Origin: an uncultured bacterium
GTDB lineage: Bacteria; Calescibacteriota; Calescibacteriia; Calescibacteriales; Calescibacteriaceae
Length of the DNA stretch: 64,000 nt
Assembly (NCBI GenBank): GCA_938036315.1
Contig: CALHPK010000002.1
Coordinates: 62,001-126,000, forward strand
Direction of reading: 5' to 3'
A model generated the notes under the pieces. That model did not search any database, was not told where the DNA came from, and saw nothing but the letters and a program-made list of their open reading frames with translations. Position numbers and translations under genes: made by a program. Below, one piece after another: positions 31,637 through 51,178 of this stretch; position 1 is the stretch's first letter, and every line of letters begins with the position of its first letter.

Positions 31637-32107
31637 TCAGTCGTTTATTTGAGAAGCAAGAAAATTCTGGATCCCAATTTTTTCTATCTGATCAAGTTGT
31701 GATTCTACAAGGTCAAGATGGGATTCTTCATCTTTCAGGATTGACTCTAATATTACTTTTGTTCCGTTATCATTAAGATCTTGGCAGACTTTTATTGCTC
31801 TGTTATATAAGTTGACTGCATACTTTTCTGCTTCAAGGGATATTTTGAGTATAGATAATGGGTCTTTTCCTATTTCCATCTCTTTCAATTTTATTCCGTA
31901 AACTTCTCCTCCAAGGAACAGAATTCTTTCTATGTGTTTTTCGGCGTGGTGCATTTCTGTTTTTGCTCTTTCCATAAAGATGTTATGGAGCTTTTTATAA
32001 CCCCAGTTAGCGAAGAGTTCAGCTTGTACAACATATTGTATTATTGCGGTAAGTTCATCAGAAAGAAGTTCATTCAATATTTTTACTATTTCTTGATTTC
32101 CTTTCAT
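31637..32107 (-). CDS. bfr: Bacterioferritin
   Basis: A haem-containing ferritin that stores iron as a 24-mer. The 156-residue protein keeps the diiron ligands: Glu in LLSDELTAIIQY, ExxH in ERAKTEMHHAEKHIER, and Glu and ExxH in LKDEESHLD. It also has the haem-ligating Met (in AKTEMHHAE) that marks bacterioferritin. The ATG lies only 9 nt after the CCA end of tRNA-Glu, on the same strand and without a Shine-Dalgarno sequence. It is probably made from a shared tRNA-mRNA transcript, unless the intervening TAATAA acts as a -10 box. Confidence 0.94.
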   Translation of the reverse strand: MKGNQEIVKILNELLSDELTAIIQYVVQAELFANWGYKKLHNIFMERAKTEMHHAEKHIERILFLGGEVYGIKLKEMEIGKDPLSILKISLEAEKYAVNLYNRAIKVCQDLNDNGTKVILESILKDEESHLDLVESQLDQIEKIGIQNFLASQIND

Positions 32108-32116
32108 TTTTTATTA

Positions 32117-32194
32117 TGGCGCCCCCGAGGGGATTTGAACCCATGTTTCCGGATTGAGAGCCCGGCGTCCTCGTCCTGGCTAGACGACGGGGGC
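32117..32194 (-). tRNA. tRNA-Glu (anticodon CTC), CCA encoded
   Basis: The minus strand folds into a full cloverleaf. Acceptor GCCCCCG pairs with CGGGGGC. The anticodon stem CCGGG pairs with TCCGG around the loop CTCTCAA, and the T arm contains GGTTCAAATCC. Discriminator G is followed by an encoded CCA. The bfr start codon follows after 9 nt. A TAAGAT hexamer ends 5 nt before the 5' end. Confidence 0.95.
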
Positions 32195-42857: not shown

Positions 42858-45800
42858 CTATGTAAAAAGTTCATTAAAAAGATTCCTAAATATCTGGATG
42901 TAGTCCTCTTGTCCGGCTTCAACTCTGTCCATCTTCTCTTCAAGTTCATTTGTGTACTGTTCGGAAGTGTATATAGAAAATTTTCGGTGATTTTTGAGAT
43001 AATTGTATACCTCTTTACCGAGTTTTGTTACTATCAAATATCCATTCCTTTCTATGCAGTATCCTCTATCAAGAAGAGTTTTGATTATATATGCCCAGGT
43101 GGAAGGTCTTCCTATACCTTTTCTTTTCATCTCATCTATCAGGCTTCCCTGAGTATAAGGCGGGACCGGGGAATCGAAACTGAACTTAAAATCATAAGTT
43201 TCAACGACTATCTTTTTCTTCTCAAGTAATTCTTTTGTGAAGTTAGCTATCGGGAAAAACAAAACTTTATTCCATCCATCCTCTATAATTTTAAGATTGA
43301 TCTCAGATTCTTTCTCTACAGACATTTCTTCTCCATTTGCTTTCCAACTTGCAGAGACCAAAATTTTTCCTCTCAATACTTTCAGTGGTATCATTTGCGA
43401 AGCCATAAACCTTGTGAATATAAGTTCATAAAGCTTTATAGCTTTTTCAGAAATAGATATGTTCCCTACCTTTGCTGAGATCAAAACTTCATCTGGCGTC
43501 AGATTTGACGAAGGTCTTATACATTCGTGAGCACCCTCACCCTCCCAAGCTCTCGGGACAAAAAATCTACTTCCAAAATTCTCAGAAATGAAGTCCCTGG
43601 CTAGTGAAATTCCGACGTCTGACACATGATGAGAATCTGTTCTATGATATGTTATAAGACCTGCCTCAAACAAACTCTGCGCTAAATTCATAGTTTCTGG
43701 AGCTGAGAACTTCAGTTTCTGCGATGCTTCCTTTAGCATCTCAGCAGTGTTAAAGGGAGCTGGGGGGTTAATCACTACCTCTTCTGTATCTTTGAGCTCA
43801 ACTTTAATCAGAATCTTTGAGTTTTCTAATCTAATTTTTTCATCTTCTTCTTTTTTTCTTTTTCTTCCCTTCAATTTTTGTAAAGATTTACTTACTTTTC
43901 TGGCAAACTCTCTATCTTCAATTTTTATGATATCTGAGATACCATTAGCGGTTTTAAATTTTAACACACCTATTTTTTCTTTCATTTGATTTTCTCTCTC
44001 TATGAGCCATTTCAGAACTGGTGTCTGAACCCTACCTGCTGACAACCATATCTTGTCATAACTTTTCTGAAGATTTTCACTCATCACAAAACCAACCCAT
44101 CTATCAGTTACTCTTCTTACAATCTGTGCCTTCACGAGTCCATAATTTATATCTCTTGGTTTCTCAAGAGCATTCAGGATAGCTTTTTTTGTGACCTCAT
44201 GATATTCAACTCTTCTTATCTCTTTTTTGTATTTCGGGAGCATCAGATATATATCCCAAGCTATCTTTTCCCCCTCGCTGTCCGGGTCTGTAGCTATGAA
44301 AATGGAGTCAGCTTCCAGACAAATTTTTTGTATTGCCTTTACAACTTTTGTCTTGTCATCATATTCTTCGGATTGGCAGTATGGGCATCTTTTTTCCTCA
44401 AAAAAATGCTCCCCGCATCTTCTACACCTTTTTATAGGTGAGTAATAAGGGATGAAAAGCTCTTTCAGATCCTCATTAATAACTTCCACACCGTAGAAAT
44501 TTTGTTTTTCATATCCTCTTTTTTGTGGAGAGAATGGCAGATCATATATATGTCCTCCTGATGCTATCAAAGTTATGTTCAGATCTCCTTTTGATACCTC
44601 CCAAGCTTCGGCAAAATTGCCATTTTCTCCGATGGGTACTTTCCTTTTCATCGGCTTACCTATTAGCTTGGCAATGGTTCCGGCTTTGTTTGGAGACTCA
44701 ACAATAAACACTGCAGTTTTGGGCGGTTTTACAGCTTTCAGATCCGCACCAAGTGGATTTTCATGCAATTTCATAATGAGTCTTATCTTCTCCCTATCTC
44801 TATCCACCTCTTTTAGAATTTTCTCAAGCTCTACTTCTTCGAAATTCTTGAAATTAACATCAACGAGATCGATTTTAAGGCGCTTTTTAAGCTGTACGAA
44901 GGCTTTCTTATCATCCACTATGAGTATAGATAAACCTTTTGATAACCCTTCTATATACAATCTCGAGGTTCTTCCAGTTGCTTGAATGTAAGCCGATGAA
45001 TCAGCAACTATTAACCTAAACTTGCCATCACCTCCAACCCTTAGGGGGACATCTTCTGACATTCTTATTTTCTGAAGGATCTGTGGGTTCGAGATGCTCT
45101 CTTCAATAAATTTCTTTATACTTTCAAATCTTTCTTTTATGGCGGGATATCTATCTATATCATCTTTACGCATACCGACGTATCTTCTCAATGATTCTAT
45201 GAATGAATAGATTTTTCTTCCATTGCCTAAAACGGAACGAATCGAAAATAAAACCCCGAGCATTTTCGAGGGTTCGTCTATCTCTTGAATTGAAAAAATA
45301 AATCTTGGAACTCCAGCAAAGATGGCATATCTTACGGTATCAGGCATATCTATCCCTCTGCAAAGTGGATTCCTCAGCGATGAGATTCCTATAACTACCT
45401 GAATTTCTTCATCTCTAAATTTGCGCTGATTCTCATCCTTGAATTCTTCATACGTAACCGCGTTTATGTGTCTCCTCATTAGGAAAGATTTTAGTTCATC
45501 AACCGACTCCTTCCCATATTCAGAATTGACAAAGACAAACCCGCCATTCCCACACATTGATACAACTTCAGCAACTTTCTTAAAAACTTTCTTTTTGACT
45601 CTTTTCAGATCCTCATCTTTAATTATTTCTCCATCAATAATGGTATAAGTATCTTCTATATTTCTTATTGTTGATGTGAATGGAGAAATTTCAAAGCCAA
45701 AAAGTTCTCTGAAATATCTCACGGTATTTGCACGCGGTTTGGCTGTAGCAGATGATATTACAAGAACTCCCTTAATCTTCTTCCTTATCTCCGCAACTGA

Positions 45801-46652
45801 TTTATTTACCTCTGAAAAAGCTTCAAATTTTTGAATCTGAGATTGTTCCCTGTTTCTCATTATCTCATACTTCCTCAGTATTGTAGATTTCAATTTTTCA
45901 ACATCATCTTTTGAAAGCCCCATAAGCTTGAGAACTCTTTCGACATTCTTTGGCTGTTTGAGATAAGTATCAACATCATCAACAAATATAAAATCAAAAT
46001 CTTTACCAATTATGATGTTTTCATTCCTTGCAAGAAACATACTCGTCGTGATAAGTATGTCATAATCTCCACTCTGAACTTTATCCCTGATTTTTTTATC
46101 AGATTTTGAAACGAAAAGAACTTTTTTCTGCATTCCGAGCCTATCTATAATTTCTTCAATTCTTTTTACAAATAGCCCGGAAAGAAGCTTGGTAGGCATT
46201 ATTATATAAGATTTCCCTTGTGTAAACAGAGACATAACTATTCCGAATGTCGTTTTTCCTATACCTGTTGGAGCTAGAGCAACAAACGACTGATTAGCAA
46301 AGGTTCTCTTTGCCCAATTCAATTGCAAAGACCAGGGTTCTGATCCGACAACATTTTTGAAGAAAGAGGAAAATTCTTCTGCTCTCCTCTCTATTTCGTA
46401 AATTTGCGAAAGATACTTTAATTTTCCATTACTCCGCAATACTTCTATGATATGAGGCAAAGATACATCCTGGGGAATCTCAGGTAAACACTCTGAGCAA
46501 GGAATACCCTTATCAAGCCTATCAGATGATATATCCCCTCCACAGTTTATACAACTTTTAAGGAAAATGGCAGGTATATTACTGCTTATCTCGGTAGCTT
46601 TTTGCATTCCTTCTTCTATTATATTCATTTTATAGCGAACTGCCCTTATCAT
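42858..46652 (-). CDS. rgy: Reverse gyrase
   Basis: Reverse gyrase introduces positive supercoils and is the hallmark protein of hyperthermophiles. The 1264-residue fusion is complete. An N-terminal zinc finger (CINCGG and CSEC) is followed by the helicase-like module with Walker A ALAPTGIGKTTFG near residue 130 and the FVDDVD box. The topoisomerase IA module begins with the Toprim segment VFIVESPNKAGTIAKLIG. It then has a second zinc finger (CRRCGEHF and CPYCQ), the metal site IATDPDSEGEKIAWD, and the active Tyr in LITYHRTDS. The first ATG is favoured because TAAAAT lies 8 nt upstream; an ATG eight codons later is possible. Confidence 0.98.
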   Translation of the reverse strand: MIRAVRYKMNIIEEGMQKATEISSNIPAIFLKSCINCGGDISSDRLDKGIPCSECLPEIPQDVSLPHIIEVLRSNGKLKYLSQIYEIERRAEEFSSFFKNVVGSEPWSLQLNWAKRTFANQSFVALAPTGIGKTTFGIVMSLFTQGKSYIIMPTKLLSGLFVKRIEEIIDRLGMQKKVLFVSKSDKKIRDKVQSGDYDILITTSMFLARNENIIIGKDFDFIFVDDVDTYLKQPKNVERVLKLMGLSKDDVEKLKSTILRKYEIMRNREQSQIQKFEAFSEVNKSVAEIRKKIKGVLVISSATAKPRANTVRYFRELFGFEISPFTSTIRNIEDTYTIIDGEIIKDEDLKRVKKKVFKKVAEVVSMCGNGGFVFVNSEYGKESVDELKSFLMRRHINAVTYEEFKDENQRKFRDEEIQVVIGISSLRNPLCRGIDMPDTVRYAIFAGVPRFIFSIQEIDEPSKMLGVLFSIRSVLGNGRKIYSFIESLRRYVGMRKDDIDRYPAIKERFESIKKFIEESISNPQILQKIRMSEDVPLRVGGDGKFRLIVADSSAYIQATGRTSRLYIEGLSKGLSILIVDDKKAFVQLKKRLKIDLVDVNFKNFEEVELEKILKEVDRDREKIRLIMKLHENPLGADLKAVKPPKTAVFIVESPNKAGTIAKLIGKPMKRKVPIGENGNFAEAWEVSKGDLNITLIASGGHIYDLPFSPQKRGYEKQNFYGVEVINEDLKELFIPYYSPIKRCRRCGEHFFEEKRCPYCQSEEYDDKTKVVKAIQKICLEADSIFIATDPDSEGEKIAWDIYLMLPKYKKEIRRVEYHEVTKKAILNALEKPRDINYGLVKAQIVRRVTDRWVGFVMSENLQKSYDKIWLSAGRVQTPVLKWLIERENQMKEKIGVLKFKTANGISDIIKIEDREFARKVSKSLQKLKGRKRKKEEDEKIRLENSKILIKVELKDTEEVVINPPAPFNTAEMLKEASQKLKFSAPETMNLAQSLFEAGLITYHRTDSHHVSDVGISLARDFISENFGSRFFVPRAWEGEGAHECIRPSSNLTPDEVLISAKVGNISISEKAIKLYELIFTRFMASQMIPLKVLRGKILVSASWKANGEEMSVEKESEINLKIIEDGWNKVLFFPIANFTKELLEKKKIVVETYDFKFSFDSPVPPYTQGSLIDEMKRKGIGRPSTWAYIIKTLLDRGYCIERNGYLIVTKLGKEVYNYLKNHRKFSIYTSEQYTNELEEKMDRVEAGQEDYIQIFRNLFNELFT

Positions 46653-48717: not shown

Positions 48718-49512
48718 AACAAGTTCTACAGCGAAAATCCCAAGAAAAGCTAATACTGATACGACTATTTGTCTATCAAGAAGAAGTTTTGATGGATCAT
48801 GGTGCTCTTTTTCTTCTGATATAATGTAATATCGCACTATCCCGAACATCACAGGGAATATCGATAATAAAAGCAATATGCTGTTTTTTTCGATTACTAC
48901 ATACATACTGTAGGAGATTATTGATAGCGTTGCAGAAATAATGGAAGTGTGTTCGTATATTTTTGTGAATTTTACTTCAGCTTTTCTTTTTATAGATGAT
49001 ATAAACATAGCTATAAAGAAAGTTGAGATCAAAAGCCATGAGGAAGGTGAAATTCCCCCAGCGTGTCCACCGGCAAGAACCCTTATAACAAAACCAGCAG
49101 ATACAATAAATAAGTCAAGCGGCTTCTGCTCCTTAAGAAAAACAGAATATATAAGGTTAAGGACAAAATAGAGTATAACAAAGGATATGACGCCTACCGA
49201 TTTGGAAATAATGGATGACAGAAGAAGTAAGATAACCGAAAACAGTATAGCAGATCTTTTTGAAATCCTTCCTGATGCCACTGGCCTTGTCCTTTTTACA
49301 GGATGCATAGCATCTCTCTGAGAATCTATAACATCATTCAGAGAGTACACTGATGATGAGATAAGCAAAAATGCCAGAAAAGAAATAGATACTTTAACTA
49401 TTTTCTCTGATGGATAATCCCCAGAAAAAAATAGTGGAGCAAAAACAAAAATGTTCTTATGCCACTGATATGGTCTCAAAAGTGATATAAAATCTCTTAT
49501 TTTCTCGATCAT
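48676..49512 (-). CDS. UbiA-family prenyltransferase, decaprenyl-phosphate phosphoribosyltransferase-like
   Basis: A 278-residue integral membrane protein with about eight hydrophobic segments. The opening LLRPYQWHKNIFVFAPLFFS and the aspartate motif NDVIDSQRDAMHPVKRTRP match the branch of UbiA that transfers phosphoribose to polyprenyl phosphate, the precursor of decaprenyl-phosphoarabinose in actinobacteria and of related lipid-linked sugars elsewhere. A second DxxxD-like site is weaker. The partner epimerase genes are not adjacent, so the role in envelope glycan synthesis is inferred from family. The 3' end overlaps adk by 42 bp. Confidence 0.82.
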   Translation of the reverse strand: MIEKIRDFISLLRPYQWHKNIFVFAPLFFSGDYPSEKIVKVSISFLAFLLISSSVYSLNDVIDSQRDAMHPVKRTRPVASGRISKRSAILFSVILLLLSSIISKSVGVISFVILYFVLNLIYSVFLKEQKPLDLFIVSAGFVIRVLAGGHAGGISPSSWLLISTFFIAMFISSIKRKAEVKFTKIYEHTSIISATLSIISYSMYVVIEKNSILLLLSIFPVMFGIVRYYIISEEKEHHDPSKLLLDRQIVVSVLAFLGIFAVELVLSKYKIKDFFGNF

Positions 49513-49613
49513 AATTTTTTACCTTTACTTTAATTTGTCTCTTCTTCATCTTTTAGTCACTTTGTTTTTTACTTCATCTTTTAGAAAAATTCATTTAATT
49601 GGTTGAGTTTTTT

Positions 49614-49619
49614 TAATTT
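49614..49619 (+). promoter_or_regulatory. -10-like element of the tRNA-Pro / trxA / suf transcript
   Basis: TAATTT ending 8 nt before the mature 5' end of tRNA-Pro. Initiation at normal spacing falls within about 0-2 nt of the tRNA end. Confidence 0.35.
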
Positions 49620-49627
49620 ATTGTGAT

Positions 49628-49702
49628 CGGGGCGTGGCGCAGGGGTAGCGCATTGGCATGGGGGGCCAAAGGTCGCCGGTTCAAATCCGGTCGCCCCGAC
49701 CA
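49628..49702 (+). tRNA. tRNA-Pro (anticodon GGG), CCA encoded
   Basis: Acceptor CGGGGCG pairs with CGCCCCG and the discriminator is A, followed by an encoded CCA. The anticodon arm is TTGGC-ATGGGGG-GCCAA with GGG at the centre, and the T arm contains GGTTCAAATCC. The trxA start codon follows after six A residues. Confidence 0.96.
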
Positions 49703-49708
49703 AAAAAA

Positions 49709-50032
49709 ATGCCTACTTACCTTGATGAAAAAAACTTCAACAACGAAATAAACAGCGATAAACCAATCCTTGTTGATTTTTGGGCGGAATGGTGTGCACC
49801 ATGCAGAGCTATAGCTCCAATTCTTGAAGAAATAGAAAAACAAAGAACTGACATAAAAATCGCAAAACTTAATGTCGATGAATACCCAGAACTTGCATCA
49901 AAATACAAAGTCTTCTCAATCCCAACTTTACTTATATTCAAAAAAGGGAAAGAAATCGGTAGATTCGTCGGTGCCGCCCCAGGACACAAAATAAATCAGT
50001 TCATCGATGATACCCTAAAAAATAACCAATAA
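49709..50032 (+). CDS. trxA: Thioredoxin
   Basis: A 107-residue thioredoxin that reduces protein disulfides. It has the motif FWAEWCAPCRAIAPIL and the cis-Pro segment SIPTLLIFKKGKEIG. The true start is the ATG at 49709. The reading frame is open further upstream, but that would run through the tRNA gene. Only six adenines separate the ATG from the CCA of tRNA-Pro, and there is neither a Shine-Dalgarno sequence nor room for a promoter. The mRNA must therefore come from a tRNA-mRNA transcript cut at the tRNA 3' end. The SufB/D gene follows 9 bp later. Confidence 0.96.
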   Translation: MPTYLDEKNFNNEINSDKPILVDFWAEWCAPCRAIAPILEEIEKQRTDIKIAKLNVDEYPELASKYKVFSIPTLLIFKKGKEIGRFVGAAPGHKINQFIDDTLKNNQ

Positions 50033-50041
50033 GTAAAACTA

Positions 50042-51178
50042 GTGGAACTTATAAAAACAAGATACTCAAAAATAAAAATTGAAGATCAAACTAAAATATT
50101 GCTCGATAACCTATGGAATAGCAGATCTATACAAGAACAAGAAAAAATAAAAATCCAAGAAGTAATAGATAAAACCGGACTAAATGCTGAATGTGATAGA
50201 ATAGATGTAATATTGCTCCCAACAAAGAAAACCGTACTAATAAAAGAACCAGAAAAAGGCTACGTGGAATTCAAAGCAATAGAAGATAACAAAGCAAAAA
50301 ATCACAATCTTAATACCGAAAGCCCACTAGATCTGATACTTTTCAAACTGACAACCTCACTTAGATTAAATATAAAAAAAAACAATTCTTTGATCCTTGT
50401 AATATTAGATGATAGCAGATCTGATCAAATTGTAACAAGCAGTGTAGAAGTGAACATAAAAAGCGGAGTCAATGTAAGAGTTTTTGAAGTGTGGACAGGA
50501 TCTACTCAAAACTATCTGCTAAATTATCTAGGGTTTACTATATCTGAGGGAAGTTCTCTCAATTTCACTTTCGTAGACGATACCGAAAAAGCAAAGATAA
50601 TCCAAAAGAAAAGATTCACATTACTGAAAAATGCTAAATTTCACGGAGGAAATATCTGGCATGGGAGGTCAAAAAATCTTGTATTTGAAAATGTAGTTTT
50701 AGAAGGTGATGAAGCAGACGCTCAAGATTTTCACATCTGTGTTGGCAGGGATAAATCTCAACTCGAAGTAAATTATGAGATCTATCACATAGGAGAAAAA
50801 ACGCGTGGACTTGTTATCACTAAAGGAATACTTTATAACTCCGCAGAGATAAATTTCTTAGCATACGCAAAAGTAGATAACAGAGCAAAAAATTCAGACT
50901 CGTATGTAGAAGGTAAGAGCCTGATTATGTCTGAAGGTGCAAAAAGCTACATAGTCCCATCAATGGAAATCGCTACAAATATAGTTAAAGCAAAACATTC
51001 AGCATCAGTTAGCAGAATAGGAGATAACGAACTATTTTATATAATGACCAGAGGCATTGAAGAAGGGGAAGCTAAAAAAATGATACTTGAAGGATTTATC
51101 TTAGACATTGCCTCCAAGTTCCCATCTCCCATAGAAAGGATCATTCCCAAACTCCTCTACCCCCACCCATCTCCTTAG
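50042..51178 (+). CDS. SufB/SufD family Fe-S cluster assembly protein
   Basis: The SufBCD complex scaffolds Fe-S cluster assembly. This 378-residue protein has the beta-helix core ending in the family signature VKAKHSASVSRIGDNELFYI, then TRGIEEGEAKKMIL. The N-terminal ~110 residues are divergent. The start is GTG, 9 bp after trxA, which implies co-transcription with thioredoxin and tRNA-Pro. No sufC or sufS is adjacent. Length and the His-Ser around the signature do not clearly separate SufB from SufD; the modest length favours SufD. It overlaps the end of the convergent diguanylate cyclase gene by 38 bp. Confidence 0.85.
   Translation: MELIKTRYSKIKIEDQTKILLDNLWNSRSIQEQEKIKIQEVIDKTGLNAECDRIDVILLPTKKTVLIKEPEKGYVEFKAIEDNKAKNHNLNTESPLDLILFKLTTSLRLNIKKNNSLILVILDDSRSDQIVTSSVEVNIKSGVNVRVFEVWTGSTQNYLLNYLGFTISEGSSLNFTFVDDTEKAKIIQKKRFTLLKNAKFHGGNIWHGRSKNLVFENVVLEGDEADAQDFHICVGRDKSQLEVNYEIYHIGEKTRGLVITKGILYNSAEINFLAYAKVDNRAKNSDSYVEGKSLIMSEGAKSYIVPSMEIATNIVKAKHSASVSRIGDNELFYIMTRGIEEGEAKKMILEGFILDIASKFPSPIERIIPKLLYPHPSP

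Follow-up and report, generated by a model that had tools for sequence, protein, structure and literature searches.

In the bacterial family to which the window belongs (the window being the whole 64,000-nucleotide stretch analysed here), more than half of the tRNA genes that are not followed by a further tRNA stand immediately ahead of a protein gene on the same strand, with a start codon most often about 9 nt past the discriminator base. Judging from this layout, we consider it probable that the tRNA is the first cistron of the transcript and that its 3′ maturation frees a near-leaderless mRNA which is translated without a Shine–Dalgarno (SD) sequence, a bacterial counterpart of 'tRNA punctuation'. 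The source assembly is 1.87 Mb in size and 85% complete, and the window has 37% G+C. It carries a reverse gyrase gene on the minus strand (42858-46652; domain matches to zf_Rg, DEAD, Toprim and Topoisom_bac), which marks the host as a thermophile. Reverse gyrase, the G+C content and the flagellar genes would be in keeping with Calescamantes (PMC4791363).

The arrangement is seen at the tRNA-Pro/trxA junction of the window. The tRNA-Pro gene (anticodon GGG; 49628..49702, plus strand; ARAGORN, with an Rfam tRNA match of 61.5 bits), our proposed first cistron and processing signal, encodes its CCA at 49700-49702 and has A49699 as discriminator. It is followed by a spacer of six A (49703..49708, plus strand), which brings the leader, CCA included, to 9 nt past the discriminator, and then by the ATG of trxA (49709..50032, plus strand), so that tRNA end, six A and trxA start read ...GTCGCCCCGACCA-AAAAAA-ATGCCTACT. 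ARAGORN and the sequence agree to the base with an earlier, sequence-only reading of this DNA, which had placed the tRNA end at 49702 and the trxA ATG at 49709 with six adenines between them. The 107-aa product is a thioredoxin, as it matches PF00085 and scores 123.1 bits against the TIGR01068 equivalog model (cut-off 96.8), and it has the active site WCAPC (WCxPC). With a gap of 6 nt after the CCA, there is no SD ahead of the ATG and no space for an SD, a promoter or a terminator between tRNA-Pro and the start codon; that reading was thus also right in that SD is absent and that nothing but the tRNA can serve as leader. A consensus scan of the plus strand from 49480 to 50500 found neither a sigma-70 promoter, including upstream of tRNA-Pro, nor a terminator. 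In the predicted folds the 5′ region of trxA is almost unstructured, and the tRNA-Pro cloverleaf is predicted both alone and within a 133-nt junction transcript. The longest ORF would begin at ATG 49658, inside tRNA-Pro. This start was rejected on a five-sequence alignment, because the relatives align from 49709 and their ORFs begin 9, 14 or 15 nt past the discriminator in differing frames with respect to the tRNA. Such starts are misplaced by gene-calling programs that look for an SD or permit a start inside a tRNA, as with 49658 in the ORF list. A sufD-like gene (50042..51178, plus strand), with a GTG start 9 nt past trxA, is probably the second protein cistron. It is assigned to the SufBD core domain only (PF01458, 146 bits), its TIGR01981 score of 163 bits being below the 222-bit cut-off for SufD. 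It is the single suf-like gene downstream of trxA in the window genome, and a homologue follows trxA in G001, G003 and G004.

We compared the window genome (G000) with four genomes of the same family (G001-G004), three genera in all, the family genomes being incomplete metagenome-type assemblies (82-86%). Orthologues of trxA were found in all four relatives (71-77% identity). The sequence-only reading had staked its claim on the tRNA-Pro/trxA adjacency in close relatives, and it is kept in 4/4, so that tRNA-Pro(GGG) directly precedes trxA in 5/5 family genomes; at 25 thioredoxin loci from other phyla no such tRNA was found. Among named genome contigs and viral contigs only distant thioredoxins were matched. 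The trxA start lies 9 nt past the discriminator in the window, G004 and G002 (in G002 counted from the second ATG, the one aligning with the other relatives) and 14-15 nt past it in G003/G001. G004 and G002 do not encode the CCA of tRNA-Pro, and the 9-nt spacing is nonetheless unchanged. A divergent prenyltransferase gene upstream is also retained at this locus. A second tRNA leader in the window is tRNA-Glu (CTC), with encoded CCA (32117..32194, minus strand; ARAGORN; junction GGCGCCATAATAAAAAATGAAAGG), ahead of a gene for a ferritin-like protein of 156 aa (31637..32107, minus strand; PF00210, 113 bits). Its ATG is 12 nt past the discriminator and 9 nt past the CCA, and the orthologue in G002 (74% identity) starts 9 nt after tRNA-Glu.

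A census was made of all tRNA genes and their flanks in one genome of each genus, G000 (44 tRNA genes), G003 (45) and G002 (46). Behind terminal tRNAs, those with no tRNA next, we took ORFs of 80 aa or more and measured how far their first start codon lies from the discriminator. A tRNA was called coupled when a same-strand start lay 5-15 nt past its discriminator; GTG and TTG starts were counted, the ORF starts were computed, with orthology supporting most of them, and random anchors in the same DNA served as null. Coupled were 24/41 terminal tRNAs in G000, 25/42 in G003 and 24/43 in G002, with starts at 8-10 nt behind 16, 14 and 16 of them, respectively. Random anchors gave 4.4-5.3% for the 5-15 nt interval and 1.1-1.5% for 8-10 nt (G000, 24/41 against 4.8%: binomial p ~1e-21; across the three genera p ~1e-15 to 1e-21). 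Of 73 terminal tRNAs from other bacteria and from viral contigs, four had a start no more than 15 nt away, two of these with an SD-like AGGAGA or GGGAGA, and in compact, AT-rich controls (genomes of 1.2-1.5 Mb) the count was 3/64. The modal spacing is about 9 nt whether CCA is encoded or not; the median distances in the three genera are 9, 12 and 10 nt with encoded CCA and 10, 10 and 9 nt without it, which implies that the tRNA body determines the spacing. RNase P RNA is another stable RNA, and its nearest downstream ORF is 67-296 nt away, so that a general tight packing behind stable RNAs was rejected. About 40% of the tRNAs are not adjoined by an ORF that begins at a standard start codon. 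The ORF after tRNA-Trp (distance 10-11 nt; kept in G000 and G002) falls below the length limit, and such short genes raise the count. Behind the uncoupled tRNAs of L051 (Val-CAC), L071 (Leu-CAG), L082 (Leu-GAG) and L042 (Arg-TCG) long open frames run without ATG, GTG or TTG, and AUC, AUA or CUG near +4 to +13 behind a few uncoupled tRNAs may be non-standard starts, possibly specific to tRNA-led genes. Of the tRNA-led starts, about half are GTG or TTG (11/24 in G000, 13/25 in G003, 12/24 in G002), a share that is apparently higher than in other genes.

The pairs of tRNA and gene are conserved. The same coupled gene was found in at least two genera for 25 anticodon classes and in all three for 15, and the kept pairs include tRNA-Asp/HslV, tRNA-Gln/PRPP synthetase, tRNA-Cys/release factor 1 (RF1), tRNA-Ser(CGA)/DnaX and tRNA-Thr(GGT)/MreB. 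Protein alignments of the coupled genes between genera mostly begin at or near residue 1, which argues that the start codons are real. The 1 kb downstream of coupled tRNAs is conserved in 20/24, 21/25 and 19/23 cases in the three genera, and the 1 kb upstream of all tRNAs in only 6/41, 6/44 and 6/42. Thus the tRNA and its downstream gene move as one unit, with the marks of an operon: the same strand, a short gap and a linkage kept while the flanks change. The sequence-only reading had further supposed that tRNA processing would set the expression of a redox/Fe-S operon. As a special control of that operon this part found no specific support, because the tRNA-led layout is general to housekeeping genes: about 25 tRNAs of the window genome lead unrelated genes of this kind, and trxA is one case.

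The leaders, CCA excluded, contain 5-7% G in the window family and 2% in G093, a genome of another family described below. SD motifs are rare genome-wide in the window family (8/86 genes against 5/86 at a control position; in control bacteria 13/34 against 0), and the 3′ end of 16S rRNA retains the anti-SD in four relatives, those where 16S was found. The Bacteroidetes are given in PMC6847099 as SD-poor bacteria with an intact anti-SD. No clear shared promoter was noticed upstream of the tRNAs. TATAAT was enriched at 7-9 nt in one gene sample and not in a larger one; as the signal was not reproduced, we did not use the leaderless -10 signature as independent proof, and leaderless-type promoters elsewhere in the genome are only weakly indicated. 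With regard to base composition, the 50 nt upstream of tRNAs (G000, G003, G002 and G093) contain little C (5-10%, down to 2%) and are rich in T or purines, and the DNA downstream of tRNAs and in the first ~100 nt of the led genes is G-poor. Pairing of 5′ leader with 3′ trailer as cause of this C-poor/G-poor switch was rejected, there being no excess over shuffled pairings.

As to mechanism, RNA polymerase would start upstream of the tRNA and continue into the protein gene, a read-through that we infer from the gap between tRNA and ORF, which is too small to accommodate a promoter or terminator. The tRNA would fold and then be excised: RNase P would generate the 5′ end, and an endonuclease, of RNase Z type or another, would cut on the 3′ side, at the discriminator or CCA or just behind it. 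Such a cut would leave a 5′-monophosphate mRNA with a leader of ~6-9 nt, nearly G-free and without SD, on which ribosomes would initiate by an SD-independent, leaderless-type route; the trxA leader would read (CCA)AAAAAA-AUG. Release of a near-leaderless mRNA by tRNA 3′ cleavage, the central proposal of the sequence-only reading, is the most economical account because the relatives show a genome-wide rule, although the product would not be strictly leaderless, with 9 nt left after a cut at the discriminator or 6 nt after a cut at the CCA. With 6-9 nt of leader such mRNAs would count as leaderless in the sense of PMC4681348, which sets the limit at <10 nt.

RNase P RNA is present in 5/5 family genomes, and its loss as the reason for the odd tRNA ends was therefore rejected. 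A CCA-adding-type nucleotidyltransferase, likewise in 5/5, is consistent with tRNAs without encoded CCA. No protein of the family genomes scored above the RNase Z cut-off, the best being a 275-aa MBL-fold protein with 55 bits against 293. This MBL-fold protein (256-275 aa; L368, 1345-2172, and its homologues L369-L372) occurs in 5/5 family genomes and is distantly RNase Z-like; it is a weak candidate for the enzyme that cuts tRNA 3′ ends, as a member of an unclassified subtype. An encoded CCA is missing in about half of the tRNAs of G000, and the same isoacceptor differs between genera in this respect.

We weighed three other explanations. It is unlikely, though less so than the other two, that the unprocessed tRNA is kept on the mRNA as a structured 5′ leader serving stability or standby, in which case excision would destroy the mRNA rather than create it. 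The 30S subunit covers the mRNA upstream of the start codon, and at a spacing of ~9 nt a folded acceptor stem would sit just there; moreover, tRNAs must mature, so that excision would have to compete with such a role. A structural constraint would likewise give the spacing that we observed, anchored on the tRNA body rather than on the CCA, and there is a precedent in Nanoarchaeum equitans, whose ValRS mRNA has a tRNA-His half as its 5′ UTR (PMC3491384).

Mere packing is harder still to reconcile with the data, in either of two forms. If tRNAs simply tended to precede genes in small genomes, an SD-poor organism might tolerate it, and the low SD use in the family does remove the usual barrier to tight packing. 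We nevertheless hold such neutral compaction to be improbable: the same-strand protein genes of the window are more loosely set, with gaps mostly from -1 to >100 nt, the pairs persist while the upstream order changes, and the compact AT-rich controls rarely show the layout. The other form, in which the genes have promoters of their own inside or upstream of the tRNA and the adjacency has no further meaning, appears the least probable of all. Leaderless mRNAs in bacteria do as a rule arise by transcription that begins at the start codon, and tRNA genes can carry overlapping signals. But the -10 element for a trxA start at +1 would fall in the GC-rich T-arm and acceptor, where tRNA function dictates the sequence; such an element would be required in each of about 25 different tRNAs; the consensus scan found none at the trxA locus; and RNase P RNA lacks the adjacency. 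Release of the mRNA by tRNA processing thus stays the reading we prefer.

The same layout was found in a second lineage. A T-arm pattern followed by an ATG at the right distance was run over 386 genomes and gave 11, 8, 16, 8 and 5 matches in the five family members, with at least 10 matches in only 5/381 other genomes, three of which have 3.1-6.1 Mb. What stood out was another family, f90, with two small genomes, G093 (13 matches) and G361 (10). In G093 a start lies 5-15 nt past the discriminator at 23/41 terminal tRNAs (p ~2e-21), 20/23 being ATG, and the genes behind these tRNAs include DnaA, LspA, UPRTase, HemE, TopA and transketolase. None of its coupled genes is shared with the window family except for one topoisomerase-type match behind a different tRNA. 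In G361, 3 were coupled among 11 tRNAs sampled. The kinship of G093 to the window family is resolved to 'same domain' only. G026 was rejected as a third lineage, its pattern matches coming from tandem tRNA arrays.

In mitochondria tRNA punctuation is textbook knowledge, and its origin is usually attributed to reduction of the organelle genome. The alikeness lies in tRNA genes directly before protein genes across the genome, here too at many loci, and, by analogy, in excision that would define the 5′ ends of leaderless or nearly leaderless mRNAs without SD (Ojala et al. 1981, as cited in PMC4633059). Unlike in mitochondria, only the 5′ side of the mRNA is marked in the family, where the tRNAs are dispersed over a bacterial genome of full size and each heads an operon of its own; the leader would be ~6-9 nt instead of ~0 nt. 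In relation to other bacteria, leaderless mRNAs are known from mycobacteria, Streptomyces and P. acnes (PMC4633059, PMC4681348, PMC3848588). These resemble the tRNA-led mRNAs proposed here in leaders of <10 nt, lack of SD and common GTG/TTG starts, but their 5′ end is the transcription start, whereas in the family it would come from tRNA processing. Precursors of tRNA and sRNA in N. equitans, where the RNase Z cut of the tRNA makes the 5′ end of the downstream RNA (PMC3491384), would be alike in this cut and in the tRNA half used as 5′ UTR; they differ in being archaeal, few and mostly C/D sRNAs, with no rule for mRNAs. The family also differs from tRNA–mRNA operons of the E. coli type, in that the gap is too short for an SD and the arrangement extends to more than half of the tRNAs. 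The E. coli thrU-tyrU-glyT-thrT-tufB operon likewise has tRNAs first and a protein gene in one transcription unit, but its spacers carry an SD and such operons are isolated cases. In the open-access literature we found no matching description of tRNA-released mRNAs in bacteria, and as far as we found a genome-wide tRNA-led mRNA layout in a bacterium has not previously been described.

Taken together, the chances seem even that in at least two deep bacterial lineages, by independent evolution or shared ancestry, tRNA maturation is the obligatory 5′-end maker for dozens of housekeeping mRNAs (RF1, DnaX, PRPP synthetase and HslV in one; DnaA, TopA and LspA in the other), coupling the supply of individual tRNAs to protein expression. 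If tRNA-led release holds true, a free-living bacterial lineage would have over half of its tRNA genes serve as punctuation, so that this mode can arise in bacteria, and leaderless mRNAs would have a new source, processing instead of a transcription start. In these organisms tRNA biogenesis would then be tied directly to the expression of essential genes.
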